Source of the DNA: an uncultured Lachnospiraceae bacterium
GTDB taxonomy: Bacteria > Bacillota > Clostridia > Lachnospirales > Lachnospiraceae
Length of the DNA stretch: 12,417 nucleotides
Direction: 5' to 3'
Assembly (NCBI GenBank): GCA_946537585.1
Contig: CAMNFX010000020.1
Location: 1 to 12,417, forward strand
Shown here: positions 1 to 12,417 of the stretch, one piece after another
How positions within the stretch are numbered: the first letter of the stretch is position 1
Layout: each line of letters opens with the position of its first letter
Notes under the pieces: model-generated
The model's input: the letters and a program-made list of their open reading frames with translations, nothing else
What the model was told of the DNA's origin: nothing
The model's database searches: none
Program-made: the position numbers and the translations under genes

Positions 1-2
1 AT

Positions 3-986
3 TCACTGCTGCGATTTCGCCGCGAGGTTGCGCATCGACACATACATCTGCTCGTAGATCGGTGAGTTCATGATGATCGATACGTACTGCTTTCCGGCGG
101 CATCCTTTTCCCCGAGAACCAGGCAGAAGCCGGCGGCATTGGTATGGCCGGTCTTTCCGCAGAGGATCTCCATGTTGTCGGCGAAGGAGAACTTGCCGTT
201 ATAGAATGCGTTGCCGGAGGTCCAGGTGACATCGCGGGATTTGGAGGTATCAGAAGGATGCTCCACGTGACAGGTGTATTCCGCTGTCCGGGCGATCTTC
301 TGAAACTCCTTGTTTTTCATGGCTTCCTTAAAGATGAGATACATGTCGTAGACGGTGACATAGTGTTCTTCATCGGGAAGCCCGTGCGGGTTCATGAAAT
401 GGGAATGTGTTGCGCCGAGCTGCTTCGCGCGGCTGTTCATGACGGAGGCAAAGCCTTCCACATCGCCGCTGATATGGTGAGCGATCGCAACAGCAGCGTC
501 GTTGCCGCTCGGGACCATCAGGCCGTACAGAAGGTCCCTTAAGGGCAGCTCGTCTCCCGGCTGCAGGTCTGCCATCGAGGACCCGGATACCGTGATGTTC
601 GACTCGTCGGGGACCCGGACGATCTCGTCAAGGTCGCCGCGTTCAAGCGCGATCAGGCAGGTGAGGATCTTTGTCGTGGATGCGGGATAGACCTTTTCAT
701 ACACATTGTGCTGAGATAACACCTCGGCATCATCCAGGGAGAAAAGGCCGAAAGCCTTTGCGTTTACGTTTTCTGTGTTGAGATCGGCATCTTCCATCGG
801 AACACACAGTTTTGCGGCAAAGCCGGACGGCCTGAGTGCGGAATCATCCGTCATCAGGGACAGCAGCCCTTCTTTGGGAAAGACATAGGTATTTTCCAGC
901 TCAGGCTTTGCGCAGCCCGAAAGCAGGATCACTGCAGATAAAATAATGACGGCCGGCAGAAACCGGCCCATGATGTTACATTTCAC
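3..986 (-). CDS. D-alanyl-D-alanine carboxypeptidase, lipoprotein (peptidase S11 family)
   Basis: This enzyme removes the terminal D-Ala from peptidoglycan stem peptides and so limits cross-linking. The reading frame is complete and its TGA is at 3-5. Two starts are plausible: GTG 986, with GGAG upstream and overlapping the mgsA stop, or ATG 971, with no clear ribosome binding site. I use GTG, giving 327 aa. The N-terminus is a signal peptide ending in the lipobox LLSGC with Cys25, so the protein should be lipid-anchored on the outer face of the membrane. Catalytic motifs are STTK at 103-106, SGN at 160-162 and KTG at 278-280, with the S11 block NPHGLPDEEHYVT near 199-211. It ends soon after the catalytic domain and lacks the PBP5-type C-terminal beta domain and amphipathic anchor, consistent with anchoring by lipid instead. 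Confidence 0.92.
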   Translation of the reverse strand: MKCNIMGRFLPAVIILSAVILLSGCAKPELENTYVFPKEGLLSLMTDDSALRPSGFAAKLCVPMEDADLNTENVNAKAFGLFSLDDAEVLSQHNVYEKVYPASTTKILTCLIALERGDLDEIVRVPDESNITVSGSSMADLQPGDELPLRDLLYGLMVPSGNDAAVAIAHHISGDVEGFASVMNSRAKQLGATHSHFMNPHGLPDEEHYVTVYDMYLIFKEAMKNKEFQKIARTAEYTCHVEHPSDTSKSRDVTWTSGNAFYNGKFSFADNMEILCGKTGHTNAAGFCLVLGEKDAAGKQYVSIIMNSPIYEQMYVSMRNLAAKSQQ

Positions 987-1365
987 GCCACTCCAACTCT
1001 CCGTTTCCAAGTGCCAGCACCAGAAGCTCTGCCGTCGCCAGGTTGGTGGCGATCGGGATGTTGTAGATATCGCAGAGCTTTACGATGTCGTTGACATCCG
1101 GCTCATGAGGGGCGGGATGCTGCGGATCTCTTAAGAAGATCACCATGTCCATGTCGTTGTTCGAGATCTGCGCCGCCATCTGCTGCTGCCCTCCGAGGTG
1201 TCCGGGCAGAAACTTATGAATGTGCAGGTTGGTGACCTCTTCGATCAGGCGGCCGGTCGTTGCTGTCGCAAACAGCTGATGCTTGGACAGGATCCCCTTA
1301 TATGCGATGCAGAAATCCTGCATCAGCTTTTTTTTGGAACTGTGAGCTACAAATCCGACGTTCAT
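976..1365 (-). CDS. mgsA: Methylglyoxal synthase-like protein with altered active site
   Basis: Methylglyoxal synthase converts dihydroxyacetone phosphate to methylglyoxal and phosphate. I place the start at ATG 1365, which has GGAGAGG 5 nt upstream; the in-frame GTG at 1371 lies inside that site. The product is 129 aa (137 in B. subtilis, 152 in E. coli). It keeps the family outline: VAHSSKKK, ATATTGRLIEE for phosphate binding (Thr34, Thr36, Thr37), FLRDPQHPAPHEPDV with Asp80, His87 and Asp90, and IPIATNLATAELL. However, the GGDQQ motif reads GGQQQ (58-62), so Gln60 replaces the catalytic aspartate (Asp71 of E. coli), and Ser9 replaces the aspartate after the first conserved His (Asp20 of E. 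coli). Membership of the family is clear, but synthase activity is doubtful. Its end overlaps the proposed start of the carboxypeptidase gene by 11 nt. Confidence 0.88.
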   Translation of the reverse strand: MNVGFVAHSSKKKLMQDFCIAYKGILSKHQLFATATTGRLIEEVTNLHIHKFLPGHLGGQQQMAAQISNNDMDMVIFLRDPQHPAPHEPDVNDIVKLCDIYNIPIATNLATAELLVLALGNGELEWREM

Positions 1366-1386
1366 AGGCACCTCTCCATATAATTG

Positions 1387-2508
1387 TTATTCCCTCGTCT
1401 GCAGACCTATATTGGAGACAAGACCGATTCCGATATAAAGTGAAAGCAGCGAGGAAGCGCCACGGCTGAAAAACGGAAGTGTTACACCCGTATTCGGGAA
1501 TAATGCAGTGGCGACTGCGATGTTGGTAAATGTCTGGAAGCCGATCCAGGCGGCTACGCCGGCACAGATGACGGCACCGGCCACGTTTTTGGACTTCATG
1601 GCGATCCAGAGGATCGTAAGGATCAGGGCGATGTACAGGAAAAGGATCGCCAGGCAGCCGCGGAAGCCGAGTTCCTCGCCGATGATCGCGAAAATGAAGT
1701 CCGTGTCTTCCTCGATCAGGAAGTTGCCGGCCTTTACGGAGCTGATATCGGTATTGTAAAGACCTTTGCCGAAAAAGCCGCCGGAGCCGATGGCCATGAT
1801 CGAGTTTGCCTGCTGGAAAAACGTATCCGAGTACTGCTCCGGATACAGGAAGCTTAAGATACGGTTCTTCTGGTATCCCTGAATAAACGGGATCAGCTGA
1901 TAATTGTCAGTCGTAAAGAGGAAGACCAGCAGTCCGGCTGCAAGACCCGCCAGCGCTCCGAAAACAAGGATCCATGAAATACTGAGACCGGAAACGACAA
2001 GCATGACTGTAAAAATAACAGTCAGAATAATGGTGGTGCTGAGGTTGGGTTCAATAAAAACAAGCAGTGCGGGAATTGCGAACAGCAAAAACGAGAGGAA
2101 CAGGTTTTTGGGTTCATTGATATGTTCCTGAGTCCTTCCGAAGTATCCGCCGAAAAACAGGATCAGTCCGGCTTTTACAAACTCGGCAGGCTGAATCTGT
2201 CCTACAACGGGCAAAACGATCCAGCGGCCGGCGCCCTTATGAACGGCACCCCATACCGCTACTGCCGCAAGCATGATCACAATGCCCAGATAGATGAGAA
2301 AATTGTACTTGATCAGTCTGTTATAGTCGATAAAAGAAATCGCAAGGCAGATAGCAAAACCTGCCAGGGATCCGACGATCTGCCTGGAAACGATAGCGGC
2401 ATCCATGTTGGAGGCCGATCTTAAGATCAGGATCCCCAGAAAATTCAGGACTGTCACTACTGCCAGCAGAAACAGACTATGCGCTTTAATACTGTACTTA
2501 AATTTCAT
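1387..2508 (-). CDS. rodA: RodA, SEDS-family peptidoglycan glycosyltransferase
   Basis: RodA polymerises lipid II into glycan strands in partnership with PBP2. The 373-aa, roughly ten-helix membrane protein has the family blocks GRWIVLPVVGQIQPAEFVK (94-112), the FQQANSIMAIGSGGFFGKGL loop (231-250), EEDTDFIFAIIGEELG (266-281) and TGVTLPFFSRGASSLL (340-355). Asp270 in TDFIFA corresponds to the catalytic aspartate of SEDS proteins and is kept. One small deviation is EPNLSTT at 153-159, where most family members have a PDLG-type motif. The ATG is preceded by TTAGG with almost no spacing, and the predicted leader is very short, so initiation may be unusual. It stops 21 nt before mgsA. Pairing with PBP2 and MreCD supports RodA over FtsW. 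Confidence 0.94.
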   Translation of the reverse strand: MKFKYSIKAHSLFLLAVVTVLNFLGILILRSASNMDAAIVSRQIVGSLAGFAICLAISFIDYNRLIKYNFLIYLGIVIMLAAVAVWGAVHKGAGRWIVLPVVGQIQPAEFVKAGLILFFGGYFGRTQEHINEPKNLFLSFLLFAIPALLVFIEPNLSTTIILTVIFTVMLVVSGLSISWILVFGALAGLAAGLLVFLFTTDNYQLIPFIQGYQKNRILSFLYPEQYSDTFFQQANSIMAIGSGGFFGKGLYNTDISSVKAGNFLIEEDTDFIFAIIGEELGFRGCLAILFLYIALILTILWIAMKSKNVAGAVICAGVAAWIGFQTFTNIAVATALFPNTGVTLPFFSRGASSLLSLYIGIGLVSNIGLQTRE

Positions 2509-2526
2509 CCTAATTTATACGAGTAT

Positions 2527-2555
2527 AGTATAACATCACGTGAAAATTTTGTCAC
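2527..2555 (-). promoter_or_regulatory. Putative sigma-A promoter for rodA-mgsA-carboxypeptidase
   Basis: GTGACA (2550-2555, 5 of 6 bases of the -35 consensus), a 17-nt spacer, and TATACT (2527-2532, 5 of 6 of the -10) preceded by TGT, giving an extended -10. It sits in the 53-nt PBP2-rodA gap. The expected start point near 2520 would leave a leader of only about 12 nt before the rodA ATG. Confidence 0.65.
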
Positions 2556-2556
2556 G
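2536..2556. promoter_or_regulatory. Palindromes overlapping the rodA promoter (possible operator)
   Basis: A perfect 8-bp palindrome TCACGTGA (2536-2543) lies in the promoter spacer. It overlaps an imperfect 18-bp inverted repeat CGTGACAAAATTTTCACG (2539-2556, 7 of 9 pairs) that covers the -35. Such a placement would suit a repressor, but no regulator is identified and AT-rich spacers often give chance palindromes. Confidence 0.3.
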
Positions 2557-2561
2557 GACAA

Positions 2562-5486
2562 TCAGCCGCCGACGACATTAATAATTTCTATATCACGTGC
2601 GTTGCCGTTGATTATGCTGGGAAGGTCCGTTGCGCCGTAGTAATAGTCATAAACACGGCGTGCCAGCCTTGCTGCGTTACCTGAGGAATAGCCGAAAGGA
2701 ATCACGACCGTAACGGCGATCTCGGGGTTGTCATAAGGAGCATAGGATATGAACTCCGCGTGGTTGCCGCGGGTCTTGACCTCTTCTGCTGTTCCGGTCT
2801 TTCCGGCGATCTCTACGGTCTCATATCCCTGGAAAACACGCCTTGCGACACCGGTGGTGATGACGGAACGCACACCGCTTCGAACGATGTTCCAGGTGGA
2901 ATCCATCAGCTGTACGGTGTCGATCTGCTCTGCAGGGAAATACTGGATCAGGTTGCCGTCCGGATCTGTTTCCTTCTGTAAAAGCGTCAGATTGAACAGC
3001 TTGCCTGTCGCGAGCGCCGTCGTATAGCGTGCCAGCTGGACATTGTTATAGGAGTTGGTACCCTGACCGAAGGCGGAACGCTCCGGATCGCTGTCGGTCA
3101 TGTGCGGTTCCTTTTCATCGATCTGGATGCCGCTGACGCGGTCCAGACCGAACATGGAGATATATTTCTGCAGCCGTTCGATACCGAGCGTGGTGGAATA
3201 GGTCTCCTCTCCCGTCTCGGGGTCGCGGGTCGTTGCCAGACGGTGTCCGTACTCTGCAAAGCTGTAGTTGCAGGAGTTTTCGATAGCGCCGGCAACGGTC
3301 AGCGCCGCATGGCCGGGACGGCCGATCCAGCACTTGATGTTGGGCTCGACTTCTTCGTAAACACCGGAGCAGTAGATCTGCTCATAGGGGCCTACGACCT
3401 TTTCTTCGAGGACCGCGGCTGCAGCAAGCGGCTTGAAGGTGGATCCGGGCGCTTTGTTCGTCTGTGTCGCGGAATTGATCAGCGGGAGGGACTGGTCATG
3501 CAGGCAGGCATTGAAATAGCTGCGGTCGTTGATCCGGTTGTTGTCGTAGCCGGGATAAGCGACCAGTGCCTTGACGTCTCCCGTATTGACATCCGTGATG
3601 ACAACAGATCCCATACACGGATCGAGCGCCAGCTGCGCGGGGGTGATGTCGATGTCCTTGATGCGGTCGATCAGGAAGGAATAGGCATAATCCTCTCCGT
3701 TGACGGAAAGCTCATAATAGAGCTCCGGATTGTTTTTCAGAACACCCTGCTCATACAGCGCCATGCAGAGAAGACGCCCGGAAAGGCCGTCGCGGTCGAG
3801 CAGCATGTAACGGTAGATCAGCTTATCAAAGCTGCTGTCATTTTCCAGATCTTTCAGGATGAGCTCGGAGATCCTGTCATAAATATAATCCGAATCCTGA
3901 TACTGCTCGCCGTCCTGCAGATTCAGATGATCGATGTTGACCCAGCCCTCGGAAATTCCGGCATAAATGTAATTGCGCAGGCTGATGGTATCGTTTTTCC
4001 AGGAAAGATAGCTTTCACCGTAGATGTCGATGCCGTTTTTGTCGATGATCCCCGTGCTGCTCTGCGAAAGGTATTCATAGATGTAGGCCATGTAGGAAAC
4101 GTATTCATTGGACAGCTCCGCCAGCGGGACATCCTTTCCGCTCGTAAGCTCATAGCGGAGCCGTTCCATGACGGCGTCCTTGTGCCTGCGGAAGCCTTCC
4201 GCGATCTCGGCCTCGGCGGCACCGCGCTCCTCCATGTTGAAAAAGTGCGCCGTGTCAAGGATATTGTTGTTGATGAACTGGAAATAAGCCTCATCGACGG
4301 AAATGACGATCTCGGAGGATTCCTCCGGCAGCTCGATATCCGCAGCGGCCATATTGACGATCTTGTTTGCAATGATACCAGCGAGCTGCTGCTCGAGCAG
4401 GTGGTATACGCCGATCTGCAGGTTCTGCTGGATCGTGAGGTAAAAGTCATTTCCGGCGGAAGGCGCCGTTTCGTTGATGATCTCAAGGATCTGTCCGTAG
4501 TTGTCAACGTGCATGTCACGCTGGCCTTTCGTGCCCTGAAGGTGCTGCTCCATGGTCTTTTCGATACCGGTCGCACCGACGGAGTCCGTGATCATATAAT
4601 CCGGGTTGGACTTCTGAAGCTCGCGAAGCTTCGTCTCATCCTGGATCGCACCGGTATATCCGATGATATGCGAAAAATACCGCGCATTATTATAACGGCG
4701 GATATAGGTCTCTTCCACGTTCATGCCGCGGAGCTCACCCTGATTCTCCAGAAGCTCCGCCATGCAGTTTTCGTCAATATCTTCCGCAATCGTGCTGGTC
4801 TCATACCGCTGGAAGGCAGTCTGACGCATGGCATACAGGATCTTGACCATATCAAGGAGCGTACGGTCATCCGGAAGCACGGGCGCTCCGTCCGCGTCCT
4901 TGATGGCATCAAAGGCATAGTCCGAAACCTTCTTGCGGAAAGCCTCCTCGGCAGTCATGGCGGAAGGATATCGGACAACTCCGTCTTCGTCGGGCTGATC
5001 GAGCTGCGATGTGGGAACACCGTAAACATTGGCGACGAATCTTCGCCGTGCGGACTCGCTGCCGGTCGTGAAGCGGAAGCTTCCGTCCTCTTCCACGTCA
5101 ACCTCGAAACGGGTGACAACATTGACATTGTGCTTTTCAAGAATGGAGGCCAGACGGTACAGCATCAGGTTGCGGTCGTTATAGCTCTTGTAAGCTCCGT
5201 TGTCCGCGATCACGACATTATACGCCAGTCGGTTATAGGCCAAAAGATTGCCGTCCGCATCGTAAATGTTGCCGCGGGCACCGGGGATCTTGACGGAACG
5301 CTCTGTCTTTTCGATAAACTCATCCGAATAGCTGTCGCCGCTGACGACCTGCAGATTATAAAGCTTATTGGCAAGGACACCAAAGAGCAGCACAAAAAAG
5401 AGACCAACCACCGCCAGTCTGATCTGGAGCGGGTGATCCAGTTTTTCATGTATGAGTCCGAATATGTCCTTTAATCGTTCGCGCAC
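2562..5486 (-). CDS. mrdA: Class B penicillin-binding protein 2 (elongation transpeptidase), extra-long form
   Basis: This monofunctional transpeptidase cross-links peptidoglycan together with RodA during elongation. The GTG start has TGAGG 7 nt upstream. The 974-aa protein is far longer than the 600-700 usual for PBP2. Order of parts: a cytoplasmic basic/amphipathic N-terminus; a membrane anchor at about 24-43; the class B pedestal motif ARGNIYDADGNLLAYN at 70-85; a pedestal to about 345 with GATGIEKTMEQHLQGTKG at 304-321; then TIQQNLQ at 351-357. After this an insertion of about 250 residues, rich in Asp, Glu and Tyr, precedes GSVVITDVNTGDVKALVAYP, which opens the catalytic domain near 626. 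Catalytic motifs are SxxK at 682-685 (STFK), SxN at 738-740 (SCN) and KTG at 896-898. All are intact, so it should be active. The domain is followed by a short tail. rodA follows after 53 nt. Confidence 0.95.
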   Translation of the reverse strand: MRERLKDIFGLIHEKLDHPLQIRLAVVGLFFVLLFGVLANKLYNLQVVSGDSYSDEFIEKTERSVKIPGARGNIYDADGNLLAYNRLAYNVVIADNGAYKSYNDRNLMLYRLASILEKHNVNVVTRFEVDVEEDGSFRFTTGSESARRRFVANVYGVPTSQLDQPDEDGVVRYPSAMTAEEAFRKKVSDYAFDAIKDADGAPVLPDDRTLLDMVKILYAMRQTAFQRYETSTIAEDIDENCMAELLENQGELRGMNVEETYIRRYNNARYFSHIIGYTGAIQDETKLRELQKSNPDYMITDSVGATGIEKTMEQHLQGTKGQRDMHVDNYGQILEIINETAPSAGNDFYLTIQQNLQIGVYHLLEQQLAGIIANKIVNMAAADIELPEESSEIVISVDEAYFQFINNNILDTAHFFNMEERGAAEAEIAEGFRRHKDAVMERLRYELTSGKDVPLAELSNEYVSYMAYIYEYLSQSSTGIIDKNGIDIYGESYLSWKNDTISLRNYIYAGISEGWVNIDHLNLQDGEQYQDSDYIYDRISELILKDLENDSSFDKLIYRYMLLDRDGLSGRLLCMALYEQGVLKNNPELYYELSVNGEDYAYSFLIDRIKDIDITPAQLALDPCMGSVVITDVNTGDVKALVAYPGYDNNRINDRSYFNACLHDQSLPLINSATQTNKAPGSTFKPLAAAAVLEEKVVGPYEQIYCSGVYEEVEPNIKCWIGRPGHAALTVAGAIENSCNYSFAEYGHRLATTRDPETGEETYSTTLGIERLQKYISMFGLDRVSGIQIDEKEPHMTDSDPERSAFGQGTNSYNNVQLARYTTALATGKLFNLTLLQKETDPDGNLIQYFPAEQIDTVQLMDSTWNIVRSGVRSVITTGVARRVFQGYETVEIAGKTGTAEEVKTRGNHAEFISYAPYDNPEIAVTVVIPFGYSSGNAARLARRVYDYYYGATDLPSIINGNARDIEIINVVGG

Positions 5487-5488
5487 GT

Positions 5489-5498
5489 AATTGCCTCA
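5489..5498. repeat. 10-bp direct repeat, copy 2, containing the PBP2 ribosome binding site
   Basis: This is the second copy of AATTGCCTCA (TGAGGCAATT in the transcript). Here the TGAGG is the ribosome binding site of PBP2, with a spacing of about 7 nt to its GTG start at 5486. The repeat thus duplicates the RBS on the far side of element A. Confidence 0.6.
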
Positions 5499-5501
5499 CT
5501 G

Positions 5502-5640
5502 GCTCCGGGATATTCCGGAAGCAGGTCGTCGGCCCGCAGCCAGGTTTTTGCTTCTATGACATCTCGTCAGAGGCTTTGCCTCGGCCCATAAAAGCAAAAA
5601 CCGCAGCGGGAGGGTTTGCCTGCCCGGAATTTTCCGGAGC
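5502..5640 (-). ncRNA. Candidate structured RNA or palindromic repeat, element A
   Basis: This 139-nt near-palindrome lies between mreD and PBP2. The outer stem pairs 5502-5525 with 5619-5640 (GCTCCGG, ATTCCGG and GCAGG blocks separated by small internal loops, 19 pairs). An invariant CCCGC/GCGGG helix follows (5533-5537 with 5606-5610), then a 16-position inner stem with one mismatch (5543-5558 with 5587-5602, GGTTTTTGCTTCTATG type). At the tip, GAGGC-AAA-GCCTC forms a small hairpin and TGAC-GAGAT-GTCA may form another. The loop blocks match element B although the outer arms do not. It ends about 4 nt before the TGAGG ribosome binding site of PBP2, so control of PBP2 translation is a plausible inference. 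The alternative is a palindromic DNA insertion. Confidence 0.6.
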
Positions 5641-5642
5641 TA

Positions 5643-5652
5643 AATTGCCTCA
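5643..5652. repeat. 10-bp direct repeat, copy 1, flanking element A
   Basis: AATTGCCTCA on the plus strand, read TGAGGCAATT in the transcript, lies 2 nt outside the upstream end of element A. An identical copy lies 3 nt outside the other end. This is the layout of a target-site duplication, although a GAGGCAA heptamer also recurs elsewhere in this gap. Confidence 0.6.
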
Positions 5653-5668
5653 GGCGGGTCTGCGCCTG
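5651..5668 (-). other. Short GC-rich hairpin downstream of mreD
   Basis: CAGGCG and CGCCTG form a perfect 6-bp stem with a 6-nt loop, 30 nt past the mreD stop and just before element A. No T-run follows on the transcribed strand, so it is not a standard terminator. Its 3' arm runs directly into the upstream copy of the TGAGGCAATT direct repeat. Confidence 0.4.
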
Positions 5669-5697
5669 GCATGTTTCGAGAGCAGAATAGTTTGCCC

Positions 5698-6234
5698 TCA
5701 GGCAGCCTGCTTGCCTCTTAAGTCGTCCACACGGTCCATACGCCGGTTTGCGATCAGCAGTATACGGTAGACGAGCAGGGTGACCAGCAGGGTGAAAAAG
5801 ATCTCAGGTATGATGATATGTACCAGAGAATAGTTGAAATACAGCTCACCGATCGTCATATAGCGGTAAGCCAGAATGGCAAAGTTGTAAAATACCTCGC
5901 TGACGAGGCAGAGGATCAGGGGCAGCATGATCGAATCCGAGCGGTAGGTATGGCTGTAAAGCCCGCTGAAAAATCCCAGATAGCTGTAGATCAGGATAAA
6001 AAGCCCGAACGGTTCCGTATAAAAGAGGTCCATCATCAGACCCGCAAAAAAGCCGCACAGGATCCCCCATTCTGTTCCGTATATGAACCCGTAGGTAAAG
6101 GTAATGATCAGGATCAGGTTCGGCGCGGAAGCAAGAAAGCTGAGAAACGGAAACACGCAGGTCTGCACAATGAACGCCAGCACGACCAGCAGGAAATAGA
6201 TCAGTATTCGTTTTATGACGATCTGATATCTCAT
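5698..6234 (-). CDS. mreD: Rod shape-determining protein MreD
   Basis: MreD is a small polytopic inner-membrane protein that works with MreC in the elongation complex. The 178-aa product is strongly hydrophobic, with about five predicted membrane segments. The first (LIYFLLVVLAFIVQTCVF) follows a short basic N-terminus. The family-like block NLILIITFTYGFIYGTEWG comes next, then GLMMDLFYTEPFGLFIL. The ATG lies 12 nt after the mreC stop and has no good ribosome binding site of its own (the nearest GAGG is about 17 nt away), so translational coupling to mreC is likely. The C-terminus is polar (RRMDRVDDLRGKQAA). A 210-nt non-coding gap follows before PBP2, which is unusual in this otherwise compact cluster. 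Confidence 0.93.
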   Translation of the reverse strand: MRYQIVIKRILIYFLLVVLAFIVQTCVFPFLSFLASAPNLILIITFTYGFIYGTEWGILCGFFAGLMMDLFYTEPFGLFILIYSYLGFFSGLYSHTYRSDSIMLPLILCLVSEVFYNFAILAYRYMTIGELYFNYSLVHIIIPEIFFTLLVTLLVYRILLIANRRMDRVDDLRGKQAA

Positions 6235-6246
6235 TATGACGGATGA

Positions 6247-7101
6247 TTATTCCTCTCCGGGAGTGATGATGCCGGAATCTGTCTTGACCTGGGTGATGAT
6301 AAGCACCTCCTGGATATTGTCGAAATCGGCCACAGGGATCAGCTTGCCGGATTTGGTCAGATGCTGGCTGTTGATGCTGATATCGGCCGCATATCCGATC
6401 AGGATGCCGGGCAGAAACTTGGTGCTTAAGGTGGAGGTGACCACGGCGTCGCCGTCATTGAAGACAGCGTTCTTATCAATGTTGGTGATATCCAGCGTGC
6501 CGTCCTCATAGGCTGTGATGTTTCCCTTGACAAGGCAGGTATCGCTGCTGTACTGAGACATCGCGTAGACGTTGGACTCATCGTCGATGATCGACCGCAC
6601 AGTTGCGTAGTTGGCGCCGACCTCCGTCACGATACCGACCAGACCGCCGCCGCTTAAGACGTTCATATCCTTGGTAATGCCGTCGGAAAGCCCCTTGTCA
6701 ATACGGAAGACGCGGAACCATTTCTGTGAATCGCGCGCAATGACGCGGGCCGCAACCTTGGGGTACTGCATATAGTTCTGATCGAGCCGGTACAGCTCCC
6801 TTAAGCGTTCAAGCTCAAGCTCGTCAGAGCGCAGACGGTTGTTTTCCTCTGTCAGCGCATCGACCCTCTCCTGCAGCCTGCGGTTTTCGTCATAGACCTC
6901 ATGGAGATGGCGCTGCTCCCTGATCGAATTGGATACTGTGACGCCAAAGCGGTTGATGCCGCTCTGAACAGGGGTCAGGAAATAGCCCGCATAGTATCGT
7001 ACGGGCTCCAAAAGGGAACTCTGCAGGTAACTGACGACCATCAGAAAGCCGCAAAGTATCGTTATTACGATCAGTATGTTTTTGGAAAGTCTGTTATGCA
7101 A
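6247..7101 (-). CDS. mreC: Rod shape-determining protein MreC
   Basis: MreC is a bitopic membrane protein that forms extracytoplasmic filaments and activates the PBP2-RodA elongation synthase. I choose TTG 7101 as the start. AGGGAG lies 6 nt upstream, and the resulting product begins HNRLSKNILIVIT with a short basic leader and one membrane helix at about residues 9-27. An ATG at 7182 would overlap radC and add 27 residues without family character. The product is 284 aa. After the membrane helix there is a heptad-rich coiled coil at about 66-105 (the segment containing NRRLQERVDALTEENNRLR). The two beta-barrel subdomains follow at about 113-268, with IDKGLSDGI and VLSGGGLVGIVTEVG as the recognisable family blocks. 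mreB is not upstream; radC is the direct neighbour. Confidence 0.94.
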   Translation of the reverse strand: MHNRLSKNILIVITILCGFLMVVSYLQSSLLEPVRYYAGYFLTPVQSGINRFGVTVSNSIREQRHLHEVYDENRRLQERVDALTEENNRLRSDELELERLRELYRLDQNYMQYPKVAARVIARDSQKWFRVFRIDKGLSDGITKDMNVLSGGGLVGIVTEVGANYATVRSIIDDESNVYAMSQYSSDTCLVKGNITAYEDGTLDITNIDKNAVFNDGDAVVTSTLSTKFLPGILIGYAADISINSQHLTKSGKLIPVADFDNIQEVLIITQVKTDSGIITPGEE

Positions 7102-7119
7102 CAAGCACTCCCTGTGTTT

Positions 7120-7138
7120 AAAAAAATCGGCGCTGCCG
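7120..7138 (-). terminator. Possible weak attenuator hairpin between radC and mreC
   Basis: On the transcribed strand CGGC-AGC-GCCG forms a 4-bp all-GC stem with a 3-nt loop, followed by A and seven consecutive T. This has the layout of an intrinsic terminator, but the stem is short. If active it would leave partial read-through from the radC promoter into mreC-mreD-PBP2. It could equally be chance, since no separate promoter for mreC is visible after it. Confidence 0.33.
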
Positions 7139-7150
7139 GGTACTCTGCAG

Positions 7151-7894
7151 TTATGATTCGGCAACGTCTGACAGCGGATCATTCATGGCGGAATCAAGCC
7201 TGGTCAGGACGCCGTCTTCAAAAAAACTGTAGTAAATACCGTCTCCGATGATCAGTGAATCGATCAGGGGGATATTCATGAGCTGCCCGCCCTGCAGCAG
7301 GCTGGAGGTCATCAGAATATCCTCGCGGCTCGGCTCCGGCTGTCCGCTCGGATGGTTGTGGATCAGCACAAAGGAAGCGGCTCCGTGGCGCAGCGCGCAT
7401 GAAAAGATCTCTCTGGGAGACACCGCGGAAAGATTTACGGTGCCCCGGCTGATCAGGGCGCTCCGGATCATTCTGCCCCGGGAATCCGCCAGCATCAGGT
7501 GCACCTCTTCTTCCGTGCAGTGGCGCAGATGCTCCATGTAATAGTCGGCAATACTGGCGGGAGAACTTAAGTCCAGACGGGACTCTGCCCTCTTTCTGGA
7601 GATCCGTTTCGCAAGCTCTGCTACGCACAACAACTGGAGAGCCTTGACTCTCCCGACACCCTTGATGGCCTTGTAGTCTTCCGGACCGCAGTGCATGAGG
7701 TTCAGAAGCCCGCAGCCGATGCCGTCGGAAAAAAGGATCTCCTCTGCCAGACTCACAGCGCTCTTTTCGCGGGATCCCGTCTTCAGTATCACTGCAAGCA
7801 GCTCGGGATCCGTCAGCGTTTCCACGCCGTATTTTTCACACTTTTCATAGGGACGAAGGTCCGCCGGCAGGTCAGCAATCAGTTTGTTATTCAA
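7151..7894 (-). CDS. radC: RadC family JAMM/MPN+ protein
   Basis: RadC-family proteins combine helix-hairpin-helix DNA-binding motifs with a JAMM metalloprotease-like domain. Their cellular role is unsettled, and the original DNA-repair assignment in E. coli was not upheld. I place the start at TTG 7894, not the ATG at 7972. The TTG has AAAGGAA 5 nt upstream, the family-conserved NKLIADLPADLRPYEK begins there, and the extra 26 residues would overlap a likely promoter. That gives 247 aa, close to the family norm of 220-230. Numbered from this start, the HhH segment IKGVGRVKALQLL is near 77-89, SPREIF near 159-164, and the metal motif HNHPSGQPEPSREDI places His179, His181 and Asp192 as ligands. 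It stops 49 nt before mreC. The radC-mre linkage is common in Firmicutes. Confidence 0.95.
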   Translation of the reverse strand: MNNKLIADLPADLRPYEKCEKYGVETLTDPELLAVILKTGSREKSAVSLAEEILFSDGIGCGLLNLMHCGPEDYKAIKGVGRVKALQLLCVAELAKRISRKRAESRLDLSSPASIADYYMEHLRHCTEEEVHLMLADSRGRMIRSALISRGTVNLSAVSPREIFSCALRHGAASFVLIHNHPSGQPEPSREDILMTSSLLQGGQLMNIPLIDSLIIGDGIYYSFFEDGVLTRLDSAMNDPLSDVAES

Positions 7895-7931
7895 TCTGTT
7901 CCTTTCTGCCGGACAGAACAAACACGGGTGT

Positions 7932-7960
7932 ATTCTACCATAATTCAAAACATGTGGGAA
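7932..7960 (-). promoter_or_regulatory. Putative sigma-A promoter for radC and the elongation cluster
   Basis: On the minus strand a TTCCCA -35 (7955-7960, 4 of 6 consensus bases) is separated by 17 nt from a TAGAAT -10 (7932-7937, 5 of 6). A TG one base upstream of the -10 makes it an extended -10. An AT-rich stretch lies just upstream at about 7971-7990. Transcription would start near 7925, leaving a leader of about 30 nt that contains the AAAGGAA ribosome binding site of radC. Its position inside the region that a longer radC reading frame would cover argues for the shorter TTG start. Confidence 0.55.
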
Positions 7961-8021
7961 CTCATCCCGCATATTTTAATGGAAATTTAAGGAAGGGACA
8001 CTTGTGTTAAGAAAACTGACA

Positions 8022-8143
8022 CGGACGAAATCCCCTTCTGCGGACGTCGACGGCCCGCAGCGCAGATTTTTGCCTCTTTGGATTCAGGCAATGATAAGCA
8101 AAAATCAAGCGGGAGGGGAACCGCAGAAGGGGATTTGTGTCCG
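8022..8143 (-). ncRNA. Candidate structured RNA or palindromic repeat, element B
   Basis: A long near-palindrome fills most of the gap between the PLP-enzyme gene and radC, beginning 3 nt after the stop codon. The outer stem is 16 perfect base pairs (8028-8043 with 8121-8136, AAATCCCCTTCTGCGG and its complement), extended by CGGAC/GTCCG (8022-8026 with 8139-8143) across a small bulge. Next comes an invariant CCCGC/GCGGG helix (8054-8058 with 8109-8113), then GATTTTTGC/GCAAAAATC (8065-8073 with 8098-8106). In the apical part, TTGCCT and AGGCAA can form a competing hairpin that shares bases with the inner stem. The same architecture and conserved loop blocks occur in element A. I infer an RNA on the minus strand because both copies have the same orientation relative to transcription. 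It has no adjacent U-tract and is not a canonical terminator. A DNA-level repeat is the alternative. Confidence 0.6.
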
Positions 8144-8146
8144 GAG

Positions 8147-9433
8147 TTATGCAAGGTCGTCTAAAAACCCGTCCTCGAGAAGCTGCTCGGCACTCATACA
8201 CACGCCGAGCTTGGAATGCTGGTAGGTCAGGCCTCCCTGGAAAAATACGGTATAGGGATCCCGCAGCGGTCCGTCAGCGCTCAGCTCGATCGAGGATCCT
8301 GATATAAAGCTGCCGTTTGCCATGATGATATCGCTGTCATAGCCGGGCATCGGACTCGGTTCCGGCGCTACGAAGGCATCTACGGCAGCAGCCCGCTGCA
8401 CACCGCGGCAGAAGGAAACGACCTTTTCGGGAGAACCGAGCGTAACCGCCTCAATAATGTCATAACGCGGGTCCGCAGCCTTCGGAGCAGTACGAAAGCC
8501 CAGCTTTTCATATACGGCAGCCGCCAGGATCGCGCCCTTTACGGCGCCCGCGGTCACGGTCGGAGAAAGGAAGATCCCCTGGTATAAAAGCCGGTTGTTC
8601 CCAAGGGAAGGACCGAGCTCCTTTTCAAGGCCGGGACCGGTCAGCCTTGCGGCAGCATTGCCCACGCATTCCTCCGTGCCCGCGATATAGCCGCCGACGG
8701 GCGCGATGCCGCCGCCCGGATTCTTGATCAGGGACCCGACGATCATATCTGCACCGGCCTCGGAGGGCTCTGTGATCTCCGTAAACTCTCCGTAGCAGTT
8801 GTCGACCATGATGATGACATCCTTTTTGATGCTCCGGATATAGCGGATCAGCTCTCCGATCTCTTCCACCGAGAAGGTCCTGCGGTCTGCGTAGCCGCGG
8901 CTTCGCTGTATTTCGACGAGGCGGGTCTTTTCACTGATGGCTTTTCGGATGCCTTCAAGATCGAAGCTTCCGTCTTGAAGAAGATCCACATAGCGGAAGC
9001 CCACGCCGTAATCCCTTAAGGACCCTCTCGCGCCGCTTAAACCCAGTACGGTCTGCAGGGTATCATAGGGCATGCCGACCGGCGAAAGGATCTCGTCTCC
9101 GGGACGTGTGTTTCCGAACAGCGCCACGCTTAATGCGTGTGTGCCGCAGACGATCTGGCTGCGCACGAGCGCATCCTCGGTATGAAAGATATCGGCATAG
9201 ACTCTTTCGAGCTTGTCCCTGCCGAGATCATCGTAACCGTAACCGGTCGTTTCCAGCATGCAGGCACCGGAGATGCCGTTTTCCTGCATGGCCCGGATGA
9301 CCTTCAGCTGGTTGTATTCCGCGATCCTGTCGATCTCAAGGAACCGCTCCCTGAGGCCTTCCTCCGCTTCATCTGCAAGAGCGGCGATCCTGTCATCCAC
9401 CCCAAAGAGTCTGTATATGTTTTCTGATTTCAT
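8147..9433 (-). CDS. PLP-dependent methionine gamma-lyase family protein (YnbB/'aluminium resistance' family)
   Basis: This 428-aa protein belongs to the PLP-dependent Cys/Met-metabolism fold, in the subfamily annotated as methionine gamma-lyase or aluminium resistance protein (Pfam Met_gamma_lyase; B. subtilis YnbB). Visible signatures are GTHA at 97-100 for the PLP phosphate region, DNCYGEF at 211-217 with Asp211 placed to hold the pyridine nitrogen, and SLIKNPGGG with Lys237 as the probable Schiff-base lysine. The C-terminal part FFQGGLTYQHSKLG is also typical. A C-S lyase reaction on a sulfur amino acid is the family inference; the true substrate is not established by sequence. The ATG has a strong AAGGAG about 10 nt upstream. 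The gene starts inside the end of miaA (41-nt overlap), which implies co-transcription with mutL-miaA. The stop is followed almost at once by structured element B. Confidence 0.92.
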   Translation of the reverse strand: MKSENIYRLFGVDDRIAALADEAEEGLRERFLEIDRIAEYNQLKVIRAMQENGISGACMLETTGYGYDDLGRDKLERVYADIFHTEDALVRSQIVCGTHALSVALFGNTRPGDEILSPVGMPYDTLQTVLGLSGARGSLRDYGVGFRYVDLLQDGSFDLEGIRKAISEKTRLVEIQRSRGYADRRTFSVEEIGELIRYIRSIKKDVIIMVDNCYGEFTEITEPSEAGADMIVGSLIKNPGGGIAPVGGYIAGTEECVGNAAARLTGPGLEKELGPSLGNNRLLYQGIFLSPTVTAGAVKGAILAAAVYEKLGFRTAPKAADPRYDIIEAVTLGSPEKVVSFCRGVQRAAAVDAFVAPEPSPMPGYDSDIIMANGSFISGSSIELSADGPLRDPYTVFFQGGLTYQHSKLGVCMSAEQLLEDGFLDDLA

Positions 9434-10424
9434 TCAAAGGGTCTCCTTCATCAATATTGATCCATATTACCCCGCGTTCCCTTTTGAACCAGGTCAGCTG
9501 CCGCTTGGCAAAACGCCTTGTGTTCCGTTTGATCAGGCGGACTGCTTCGGAAAGGGGGATCTCTCCCTTAAGCCAGGAGAACATCTCCTTATATCCGATG
9601 CCCTGGGCAGCTGTGTATGTTTTTCCCGGACGGGACGGATCATCCCCGTTTTCGGGAAAGAATAACGGAAAAAGCTTTTTTGTCTCTTCTTCAAGACCTT
9701 CGGAAAGCATCCGGTCCACGCGGGCATCGATCTTCTGATAGAGCCGCTCCCGGTCGCCGCAGAGTACAAAGAAAAGGTAGTCATAGGGTGAATGCTCCTG
9801 CCCGTTCAGCCTTTTTTCGGATTCTTCAAGGTTATGCTCCGAGATCTTCTTTCCGTGAAGATGAATGAACTCCAGCGCACGGATCACACGCTTCAGATTA
9901 TTCGGACCGATCGCCTCTGCAGCCTCCGGATCTGCTTCCTCCAAGCTGGAAAAGAGCTTCCTGCGTCCGAGATCATCCCGCGCGGTATCCTCGAGCTGCT
10001 TTCTGTACAGAAGGCTTTCTTCGTCTTCCGGCTCATCGCTGAAATCGATCCCGTAAAGCAGGGCCTGGATATAAAAGCCGGTGCCGCCGCAGACGATCGG
10101 AATATGCCCGCGGGCAGTGATTTCGGATGCCGCTTCCGAGGCCATCTTCTGAAATACGGCTGCGCTGTAGTCAGCGGTCGGTTCAAGCACATCAATGAGA
10201 TGGTGCGGGACGCCCTGCATTTCTTCCTGCGTGATCTTTGCGGAGCCGATATCAAGTCCCTTATAGACCTGCATGCTGTCTGCCGAGATGATCTCTCCCC
10301 CGATCTCCCCTGCAAGGCGCACGGAAAGACCGCTCTTTCCGGTCGCGGTCGGGCCGGCGATCACGATCAGGCGGGGACGTTTGTCTTTCTGATAATAATG
10401 TGAGCGTGTTTCGTGATTTTCCAT
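9393..10424 (-). CDS. miaA: tRNA dimethylallyltransferase MiaA
   Basis: MiaA transfers a dimethylallyl group from DMAPP to N6 of A37 in tRNAs that read UNN codons. The protein is 343 aa, slightly longer than the usual 300-320. It carries the P-loop GPTATGKS at residues 24-31, the substrate-binding DSMQVY at 49-54 (Asp49 is the expected general base), GGTGFYIQALL near 117-127, the RVIRALE segment, and a C-terminal QGIGYKEM plus the basic block RRFAKRQLTWFKRE. The N-terminal extension of about 18 polar residues ahead of the P-loop strand contains no other Met. The ATG has only a weak GAG upstream, so translation may be coupled to mutL, which stops 16 nt before. Its 3' end overlaps the next gene by 41 nt. 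Placement after mutL is the standard mutS-mutL-miaA order. Confidence 0.97.
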   Translation of the reverse strand: MENHETRSHYYQKDKRPRLIVIAGPTATGKSGLSVRLAGEIGGEIISADSMQVYKGLDIGSAKITQEEMQGVPHHLIDVLEPTADYSAAVFQKMASEAASEITARGHIPIVCGGTGFYIQALLYGIDFSDEPEDEESLLYRKQLEDTARDDLGRRKLFSSLEEADPEAAEAIGPNNLKRVIRALEFIHLHGKKISEHNLEESEKRLNGQEHSPYDYLFFVLCGDRERLYQKIDARVDRMLSEGLEEETKKLFPLFFPENGDDPSRPGKTYTAAQGIGYKEMFSWLKGEIPLSEAVRLIKRNTRRFAKRQLTWFKRERGVIWINIDEGDPLNEIRKHIQTLWGG

Positions 10425-10440
10425 AGTTGCTCAGTATTCT

Positions 10441-12417
10441 TTATACGATACGCTTGAACAGCCGGTCGAGGTCCGCCTTGCTCCACCGGACGATCGTAGG
10501 CCTTCCGTGCGGGCAGGCGTAGGGGTTTTCACACTGAAGAAGCTCTGCGATCAGTGCCTTCATCTCCTGCTCTGAAAGAGGGCGGTTTCCCTTGACGGCA
10601 GCCTTGCAGGACATGGAAGCGATCCTGTCCTTCAGAAGGCCGGAGCTGATGCCCCTGGTCTCCTCGCTCATGCTCTGGATCATGTCCTTCAGTATGGCTT
10701 CCTCTCCGATATTCGGAAGATTGGAAGGCACCGCACGGACGATGTAGTCCCGGTCCCCGGCTTCCTCGATCTCATATCCGAGCTCCGAAAACGCCTCCAG
10801 GTTCTTTTCAAGCAGCACAGCCTCCTTCGGGGAAAGCGTCAGCACGACCGGAGGAAACAGCATCTGGCTCGTTACCGCATGAGATGCGATCAGCCTTGTG
10901 AAGCGTTCGTAATTGACCTTCTCATGCGCGGCATGCTGATCGATCAGATACATCTCGTTATTGTACTCAATGATCCAGTAGGTTTCAAAGACCTGACCGA
11001 TCATTTTAAAATACGGCGCGGCCTTGATATCCATGAAACGTCCCGAAGGGCTTTGAACCTCCGGCTTTTCATCCGGCACAGCGCTTTCCAGAGGAACACT
11101 CCGGGGCGCCGGGCTCTCCGCAGGGACTGCAGCGGTCTCCTGTTCTTTCAGAGAAGCAGCGGAAGGAAGCGGTGCCGCTGCCGTCTCCGGCTCATTATGT
11201 AAAGCCCTGTTCCAGACGGCGGCAGGACTTTCTACTGCTGCATCCCGGAGCAGCTCTGCTGTTTTGACGCCGTCCTTTTTTAATTCACTGACAATGTCGC
11301 TGACATAGTCGAAGCTGCGGTTCTTTTCAAAAGGAAGCGGATCCTTTCCCGGGAGCCGGTCGGCTGAAACGACGTTTCCGGCGTAGGCGTGCCCTGTCGG
11401 GGGCTGCCATTTTCTGGTCCCGGCAGCGCCGTCAACCACATGCTCGCGTTCCGTAAGCGCTTTTGCGACGGCGGCCTTTACCGCATTATAGACCTGTTCT
11501 CCGTCGGAGAAACGGACTTCGGTTTTGCGGGGGTGAACATTGACATCGACTTTTTCCGGAGGAAGTATGACATGAAGGACCGTCATCGGAAAACGGTGCT
11601 GCATCATATAAGGGGAGAATGCGTCCTCCGCTGCCTTCATCAGAATATCGGAGTGAATATGACGCCCGTTGACGAAGAAGATCTCCTGATCCCTTCTGCT
11701 GCGTGAAATGACGGGCTTTCCCGCATATCCCTCGACCCTGATGCCGTCCGTTTCTTCGGAGACCTCCATCAGGTTGGCGGTGACCTCCTGACCGAAGAGG
11801 ATGTAGATCACATCCTTCAGCCTTCCGTTTCCGGAGGTGTGAAGCACACTCCGGCCGTCGACGGTGAGGGAAAAGCTGATCCCGGTATGGGACAGCGCGG
11901 CCTTTTCCACCGTGTCAACCATATAGGAATTTTCCACCGCGGTCGATTTCAAAAACTGCCTCCGGACGGGGACATTCAGAAGGAAATCCCTGACGACCAC
12001 GGTCGTTCCGACAGGGGCTCCGATCTCTCGCTTTGTCCTCTCCATGCCCTCATGGATATTGTAGAGGATCCCGGTCAGGTCATTTTCCGTGCGTGTGATC
12101 AGTTCCACGTCAGAGACTGCGGCGATCGATGCCAGCGCCTCGCCGCGGAAGCCCATGGTGCGGATATGTTCAATGTCCTCTGCGGTCATCAGCTTGGAAG
12201 TGGCATGACGGATGAAGGCAGCGGGCACATCCTCCTTCGGAATGCCGCAGCCATTGTCAGTCACACGGATCAGCTCCAGTCCGCCGCCCTTGAGCTCTAC
12301 GCTGATCGCGTCCGCTCCGGCGTCGATGGCATTGTCGAGAAGCTCCTTCACGACGCTCTGCGGGCGCTCGGCAACCTCACCGGCGGCGATCTTATCAATT
12401 GTTTCTTTGCTCAGTAT
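10441..12417 (-). CDS. mutL: DNA mismatch repair protein MutL (5' end outside window)
   Basis: MutL is the ATPase and nicking endonuclease that couples mismatch recognition by MutS to strand removal. The frame stays open to the window edge and reads back through IAAGEVAERP, which is the usual start of MutL, so only about 5-8 residues are missing. About 658 codons are present. Counting from the first in-window codon, the GHKL ATPase motifs are DNAIDAGA near 28, DNGCGI near 54 and the TMGFRGEA lid motif near 87. A low-complexity Ala/Pro/Glu linker runs from about 340 to 460. The C-terminal domain has DQHAAHEKVNYE at about 493-504, which matches the DQHA(x)2E(x)4E endonuclease motif, plus SCKAAVKG and CPHGRP for the regulatory zinc. 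This is therefore the nuclease-active type found outside the E. coli group. It ends 16 nt before miaA. mutS is probably upstream, as in most Firmicutes, but cannot be seen here. Confidence 0.97.
   Translation of the reverse strand: MLSKETIDKIAAGEVAERPQSVVKELLDNAIDAGADAISVELKGGGLELIRVTDNGCGIPKEDVPAAFIRHATSKLMTAEDIEHIRTMGFRGEALASIAAVSDVELITRTENDLTGILYNIHEGMERTKREIGAPVGTTVVVRDFLLNVPVRRQFLKSTAVENSYMVDTVEKAALSHTGISFSLTVDGRSVLHTSGNGRLKDVIYILFGQEVTANLMEVSEETDGIRVEGYAGKPVISRSRRDQEIFFVNGRHIHSDILMKAAEDAFSPYMMQHRFPMTVLHVILPPEKVDVNVHPRKTEVRFSDGEQVYNAVKAAVAKALTEREHVVDGAAGTRKWQPPTGHAYAGNVVSADRLPGKDPLPFEKNRSFDYVSDIVSELKKDGVKTAELLRDAAVESPAAVWNRALHNEPETAAAPLPSAASLKEQETAAVPAESPAPRSVPLESAVPDEKPEVQSPSGRFMDIKAAPYFKMIGQVFETYWIIEYNNEMYLIDQHAAHEKVNYERFTRLIASHAVTSQMLFPPVVLTLSPKEAVLLEKNLEAFSELGYEIEEAGDRDYIVRAVPSNLPNIGEEAILKDMIQSMSEETRGISSGLLKDRIASMSCKAAVKGNRPLSEQEMKALIAELLQCENPYACPHGRPTIVRWSKADLDRLFKRIV

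Follow-up and report, generated by a model that had tools for sequence, protein, structure and literature searches.

Two intergenic hairpins in a Lachnospiraceae contig look like copies of a new dispersed and mobile palindromic repeat

The window analyzed here comprises positions 1 to 12,417 (12,417 nucleotides, nt) of contig CAMNFX010000020.1 from an uncultured Lachnospiraceae bacterium (GCA_946537585.1), and corresponds to contig C20 of a 59%-complete genome, hereafter G000. All genes of the window lie on the minus strand; with names based partly on Pfam families, we take them to be mutL, miaA, a methionine gamma-lyase-like gene, radC, mreC, mreD, the PBP2 gene, rodA, an MGS-domain gene and a D-Ala-D-Ala carboxypeptidase gene, in this order. 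Two of the gaps are occupied by long hairpins, element B ahead of radC and element A ahead of the PBP2 gene (Table 1). A sequence-only reading had described them as two elements with one RNA-like architecture. The present analysis concerns the repeat family to which both belong.

On the minus strand, which is the coding strand of the genes flanking A and B, the elements are built in the order outer arm, AAACC or TTCC, CCTCCCGC, helix P3 with a variable hairpin, GCTGCGGGCCGNCG and outer arm. The positions of both hairpins were confirmed, and most of the structural detail proposed for them held: the loop blocks CCCTCCCGC and GCTGCGGGCCGNCG are letter-exact in A and B, the compensatory change of the inner stem from GGTTTTTGC/GCAAAAACC in A to GATTTTTGC/GCAAAAATC in B is exact, and the outer arms are unrelated between the two copies and complementary within each. 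The 19 pairs counted in the outer stem of A recur in the predicted fold, while the figure of 21 pairs for B is about right, with 16 uninterrupted arm pairs plus outer fold pairs that do not add up to exactly 21. Predicted minus-strand folds reach -72.8 kcal/mol for the 161 nt around A (z -4.6) and -58.2 kcal/mol for the 141 nt around B (z -6.35), with none of 200 shuffles as stable in either case.

Table 1. Coordinates of elements A and B, of their parts and of neighboring features in the window
Feature	Position	Strand	Remarks
Element A, type-2 copy	5502..5640	-	between mreD and the PBP2 gene (mrdA)
A 5' arm GCTCCGGAAAATTCCGGGCAGG	5619..5640	-	pairs with 5502-5525
A 3' arm CCTGCTTCCGGAATATCCCGGAGC	5502..5525	-	from fold and letters
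A core left strand CCCTCCCGC	5606..5614	-	CCCGC is the 5' strand of helix P2
A core right strand GCTGCGGGCCGACGA	5526..5540	-	includes GCGGG, the 3' strand of P2
A helix P3 and terminal hairpin	5543..5602	-	GGTTTTTGC (5594-5602) pairs with GCAAAAACC (5543-5551)
Direct repeat TGAGGCAATT, 3 nt beyond A 3' arm	5489..5498	-	possible target duplication
Direct repeat TGAGGCAATT, 2 nt beyond A 5' arm	5643..5652	-	
Element B, type-1 copy	8022..8143	-	between methionine gamma-lyase-like gene and radC
B 5' arm AAATCCCCTTCTGCGG	8121..8136	-	
B 3' arm CCGCAGAAGGGGATTT	8028..8043	-	full complement of B 5' arm
B core left strand CCCTCCCGC	8109..8117	-	
B core right strand GCTGCGGGCCGTCGACG	8045..8061	-	
B helix P3 and loop	8065..8106	-	GATTTTTGC (8098-8106) pairs with GCAAAAATC (8065-8073)
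Separate short terminator-like hairpin	7952..7972		between B and radC promoter region

A and B are members of a larger family. An exact pattern of the core occurs at seven places in G000 and at none for the reversed control, so its recurrence is not due to chance. A covariance model built from 12 copies, six each from G000 and its sister species G001, returned 15 matches in G000 and 20 in G001 (each number including the six used for building), three in G021 (at two loci, one of them matched on both strands), and one each in G022 and G011. The 40 matches correspond to 39 loci, since the minus-strand match at G021:C48 is the same palindrome read backwards. The further intergenic copies that the sequence-only reading had named as support, with covarying stems and a nearly invariant core, do exist. 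The carriers are five of the 25 genomes of the genus, the model giving no match in the other 20, and include one of the 16 genus genomes that are at least 90% complete. Because most carriers are incomplete genomes, all copy counts are minima. Five contigs of G000 (C86, C1, C169, C56 and C76) start or stop inside or just beside the repeat, which therefore probably breaks the assembly and has a higher true copy number.

Among 397 genomes of the family (334 genera), only G000 matched, with stricter filters, which retained 8 of its 15 matches; weak relatives may therefore exist elsewhere. In a genome collection, a pattern that proved too loose gave at least 120 stretches, of which 80 were examined; three passed a letter test and one proved to be the element, and named hosts elsewhere may have been missed. 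This match (L129, JAFTBX010000096.1) comes from Lachnospiraceae bacterium RGIG3678 of goat rumen and has the same sequence as G001:C53. Viral contigs were rejected as hosts, as none of their 32 pattern matches contained the P3 helix letters. Rfam gave no match in the window up to an E-value of 1, in line with the earlier statement that no known family could be recognized, and over 14 loci with other copies it gave a single Clostridiales-1 match outside the element. This match to Clostridiales-1 RNA (RF01699), at L087:2681-2821 and ~1 kb from a copy, is sub-threshold, with 34.9 bits where 48 are required and an E-value of 0.00038.

Two arm types are represented by A and B, and the recurrence of each type at other loci goes beyond what two copies could show. 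Type 1, which includes B, has the arm AAATCCCCTTCTRCGG and the inner arm CCCCTTCTRCGG, and many of its copies possess additional outer ends close to GGGGCTGTCGCATTA; type 2, which includes A, has an arm of the form ..GGCAGG(G). Ends resembling terminal inverted repeats are present in many type-1 copies, incomplete in B and absent from A. At up to three mismatches over 18 letters, the type-1 outer end GGGGCTGTCGCATTAAGA was found at six places in G000, all beside copies, and once for the backwards control. Size variants also occur. On its left, the core of some copies is accompanied by additional GC-rich sequence that looks hairpin-like; three copies (C56, C76 and C78) have a different addition on the right, and several (C59, C37, C114, G021:C52 and one in G022) retain just the arms and part of the core. 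A larger parent element at C76, C78 and C56 was considered and rejected, the extra length being ~85 nt more of hairpin-like sequence with ordinary-looking genes beyond, of which no search was made. At L096, a degenerate second hairpin, CTCCCTTCTACGGTTCCCTTCCGCAGAGGGGGATTTTT, adjoins the full G001:C60 copy by eye.

Comparison with related genomes points to insertion. The mreD-PBP2 gap, which contains A, measures 211 nt here, with the matched protein ends 214 nt apart; in all 21 relatives that have both genes, the matched MreD and PBP2 ends lie at most 48 nt apart and often overlap, and the spacers of the closest relatives measure 31 nt (G022) and 11 nt (G001). Judged by these spacers, A is an insertion between mreD and the PBP2 gene. 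A 10-bp direct repeat lies on both sides of A; elsewhere no general pattern of target duplication was seen (by eye, with no statistical test run). Between the mreD stop and A, positions 5653-5697 hold GAAACATGCCAGGCGCAGAC, which by eye resembles the left arm of the copy at G000:C27 (type 2) and could suggest an older partial copy next to A. At the site of B, the G022 spacer is shorter and lacks the element; since this spacer varies among relatives, only G022, the closest, provides a clean comparison. Beside B, the short hairpin at 7952-7972 is intact; as sequence that looks hairpin-like by eye occupies this position in several relatives, replacement of that hairpin by B is improbable.

Similar results were obtained for other copies. 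The flanks of nine copies matched G022 sequence, and eight of them (A, B, C56, C76, C49, C55a, C148 and G011:C16; C60 was left out) were compared, some by one flank: none of the eight G022 sites is occupied, consistent with the single model match of the whole G022 genome, at G022:C17. No site was occupied in two species among the loci compared, with comparisons reaching ~1.5 kb. The flanks of G021:C52 and G001:C114 do have 347 nt in common at 92% identity; this segment follows one element at a distance of 573 nt and precedes the other by 1133 nt, hence the two copies are not at the same site. The dismissal of a simple duplicated repeat by the sequence-only reading is not supported: copies of this family are dispersed and insertion-polymorphic, and their distribution across species is patchy.

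The placement of the copies was assessed with a codon-usage gene caller, which called a gene on both sides of 29 of the 39 copies, the other ten being one-sided due to contig ends. Apart from a 4-nt overlap at C27, no element at the 39 loci lies inside a called gene. Eleven of the 29 copies are co-directional with both neighbors, eight are oriented against them, ten are located between convergent genes and none between divergent genes; every one of these copies thus adjoins the 3' end of one or both neighbors. As a baseline, 208 gaps of at least 30 nt in 388 kb of the relative G022 (not the same genome), called in the same way, include 159 co-directional, 22 convergent and 27 divergent gaps. 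The absence of divergent gaps among the 29 has a probability of 0.018 by gap number and 0.002 by gap length. The two orientations (11 with and 8 against transcription in the 19 co-directional gaps) and the different sites in each species do not agree with a cis-regulatory or strand-specific RNA, the role preferred at first, for which a fixed orientation to a conserved host gene would be expected. The sequence-only reading had itself named occurrence in both orientations as refuting evidence, provided that transcription is lacking.

Altogether, we estimate a probability of roughly 85% that A and B are copies of a short (~110-200 bp), non-coding and non-autonomous mobile palindromic repeat, similar to miniature inverted-repeat transposable elements (MITEs) or repetitive extragenic palindromic (REP) sequences, rather than a conserved cis-regulatory RNA. 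Such a repeat would move as a hairpin-forming DNA unit, mobilized in trans by a transposase that favors hairpin targets. A copy, once inserted, is predicted to become part of the transcript at a gene's 3' end and to form a long hairpin there, with a possible side effect on termination or on mRNA decay.

For type 1, the best candidate mover would be a transposase of the IS1182 family, because the outer ends resemble those of an insertion sequence (IS) in the sister species and IS1272 has been reported to enter or replace hairpins. The complete G001 IS (C17; L252, L349) has the ends GGGGTTGTCGCACTA and GGGGCCGTCGCACTA and a full-length transposase gene, scoring 277 bits against NF033551 for the piece tested (cut-off 270) and 331 bits for the whole. 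Its ends match the type-1 end GGGGCTGTCGCATTA at 13 of 15 letters, being similar and not identical. According to the accessible parts of two reports, IS1272, a member of the IS1182 family, inserts into hairpins, frequently those of terminators; the target hairpin is lost in part or completely, and no target duplication arises (PMC4923244, PMC5678879). Similar inverted ends were also seen at G001:C13, G001:C102 and G011:C63, contigs without a match to an IS1182-family transposase.

Several observations weigh against this assignment or against mobility as such. By eye, neither A nor B has both IS1182-like ends, B having none on the left and A belonging to type 2. No IS1182-family transposase was found in the carriers G000 (59% complete), G021, G022 or G011, whereas G024 has one and no model match. 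The control for the pattern resembling terminal inverted repeats gave one chance-type match each in G000 and G011. The direct repeat around A does not fit IS1272, which is reported to make none. Finally, covariation as strong as that described below could mean a selected function rather than mobility. An IS1182-family mover is thus a lead, not proof. The tyrosine (Y1) transposases of the RAYT/IS200 group were rejected as partners: they occur in 15 of the 25 genus genomes, not including G000 (incomplete) or G021, and at 12 Y1 loci no core adjoins the gene, with only four near-matches to a single half, so the repeats do not flank RAYT genes there.

The origin of the variable arms is the point at which the first alternative arises. 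The conserved core could by itself be the mobile unit, entering the loops of pre-existing hairpins, above all host terminators, and the arms would then be the split hairpin of the host or of a carrier MITE. In G001, downstream of a transketolase-subunit gene (copy G001:C148), ATCCTCCTGAGAC and GTCTCAGGAGGAT enclose the core, and A- and T-tracts lie beyond them; its closest relative G021 encodes a 94% identical protein at this locus, followed by a terminator with the same stem core but one compensated pair. By this comparison the core sits in a host terminator loop at least once. The arms of this copy, ATCCTCCTGAGA and TCTCAGGAGGAT, flank the core exactly where G021 has the plain terminator AAAAAGTCATCCTCCGGAGA-AATGAA-TCTCCGGAGGTCTTTTTG (11/12 and 9/12 identical); for comparison, identity of 11/12 to an arm was not reached in any of 304 windows after stop codons in G022. 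The G001:C55a arms are those of a U-tract terminator, although the G021 terminator at the same place (rsmE) has a different stem. REPs nested in longer palindromes have been described as well (accessible part of PMC3733652). However, C148 is the one clear case, and by eye its arms are also similar to the arms of the G011 copy. Since arms of types 1 and 2 are found at many loci, they travel with the core, and an exact pattern for the type-1 hairpin, applied in search of hairpins lacking the core, gave three loci in five genomes, all with core letters inside. Moreover, the terminator-like hairpin beside B is intact, and at the site of A the spacers of relatives are mostly too short for such a hairpin. 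We consider loop insertion possible, at less than even odds. The more specific proposal, in which a structured core of ~75-110 nt is a self-contained mobile unit that specifically enters hairpin loops, including those of working terminators, keeps the host stem and so grows "hairpin within hairpin" elements with host-owned arms, is tentative and on balance doubtful. Loop insertion, if true, would offer a simple and selectively mild route for repeats to spread along transcript ends.

Pairing within the copies was quantified in two ways. The P2-P3 unit was aligned with MAFFT for 31 sequences, leaving out seven of the 39 loci that lack the full core and one duplicate core. In this alignment 95.8% of cells are paired, compared with 40-50% for slid control structures, and two-sided changes are found in 8 of 15 pairs (7 of 10 in P3). 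The P2 cells of L066, L067 and L069 were counted as unpaired because the right ends of these copies run into the extra module. The covariation score equals 0.292 versus 0.113 in shuffles that ignore relatedness, while P2 itself hardly varies; four of five covariation measures exceed all 500 shuffles, and the fifth (further pair types) was reached by 44 of them. The arms were then compared in 32 of the 39 copies, excluding five without anchors and two with short flanks. They bind their own partner with a mean of -15.6 kcal/mol and the partners of other copies with -10.3 kcal/mol, and none of 10,000 permutations reaches the observed sum, although in several single copies the arm of another copy binds better. 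By distance from the loop (five copies without anchors and three with short flanks left out), copy-specific pairing shows clearly within the first ~24 nt, disappears at 24-36 nt, returns at 36-50 nt (30/10,000 permutations) and is lacking at 50-100 nt.

Covarying arms alone would not prove selection on RNA, since the same pattern would result if the element enters hairpins that already exist, or if palindromes undergo templated correction. Near-perfect palindromes are corrected by template switching or gene conversion, and such a mutational process could maintain the complementarity of the arms without selection on folding. That copy-specific complementarity is strongest next to the loop argues for this mechanism, while the mismatched or bulged arms of several copies and the conservation of the unpaired core argue against it, and we find it somewhat improbable. 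A selected structured RNA, namely a 3'-untranslated element that stabilizes or processes mRNA or ends transcription and is kept by selection on pairing, would account for the paired P2-P3 unit with its two-sided changes, the preference of arms for their own partners, the conserved unpaired core nucleotides and the location of all 29 copies at gene 3' ends; given the nearly equal orientations, the 20 congeners without a match and the different loci in each species, and since mobile palindromes would likewise be purged from genes and promoters, we regard it as unlikely. A terminator scan did not call A or B, under a rule that admits loops of 3-8 nt only. The original interpretation of A and B is partly supported, and a mobile palindromic repeat remains our preferred reading.

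Compared with known systems, A and B appear to represent a family not previously described within a known kind, the dispersed mobile palindromic repeats, and not an established gene switch. Repeats of a similar kind include bcr1 of Bacillus cereus, which is of the MITE type. As with the MITEs ERIC, Correia and BOX, the elements are short, non-coding, dispersed (39 loci) and insertion-polymorphic with empty sites, fold into long hairpins and have size variants (accessible part of PMC10969869). In contrast to MITEs, their arms differ wholly between copies and yet pair within each, the asymmetric core is central rather than terminal, and either side of it can bear an optional extra hairpin module. 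The GTAG- and CGTC-tagged REPs are likewise small palindromes in which an unpaired motif at the side is conserved (its counterpart here is CGTCGG, on the opposite strand of type 2), found mainly between co-directional and convergent genes and downstream of open reading frames, some families being nested in longer palindromes (accessible part of PMC3733652). As described there, CGTC REPs have the CGTC tag beside an 8-9 bp stem, usually with AT first, a 4-5 nt loop and a CCA-like tail. Here, the tag-like CGTCGG is present but stem, loop and tail differ: a 5-bp helix and a ~10-bp helix form a P2-P3 unit of 57-81 nt, and no associated RAYT was found. The phyla named for REPs in the accessible text of that paper do not include Firmicutes, a word that occurs 0 times in it (PMC3733652).

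The resemblance to the IS1182 family (IS1272; accessible parts of PMC4923244, PMC5678879) concerns the ends of many type-1 copies, whereas the element has no transposase gene and type-2 copies such as A lack these ends. With IS200/IS605-type elements and RAYTs the family has in common short palindromes mobilized in trans (partly general background, partly the accessible text of PMC3733652), but the Y1 transposases do not track the repeat. Among the matches listed for the REP and MITE literature, which leaves most subscription journals outside its scope, there is no report of such a family in Lachnospiraceae. The results thus add, for one genus of Lachnospiraceae, a family of structured mobile repeats that seems to be undescribed, with a clear case of the core in the loop of an orthologous terminator. 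They also indicate that two-sided compensatory changes between intergenic copies, usually taken as a sign of functional RNA, can mark a mobile palindrome.

The PBP2 encoded next to A (2562-5486) has 974 amino acids, which is long for a class B penicillin-binding protein.

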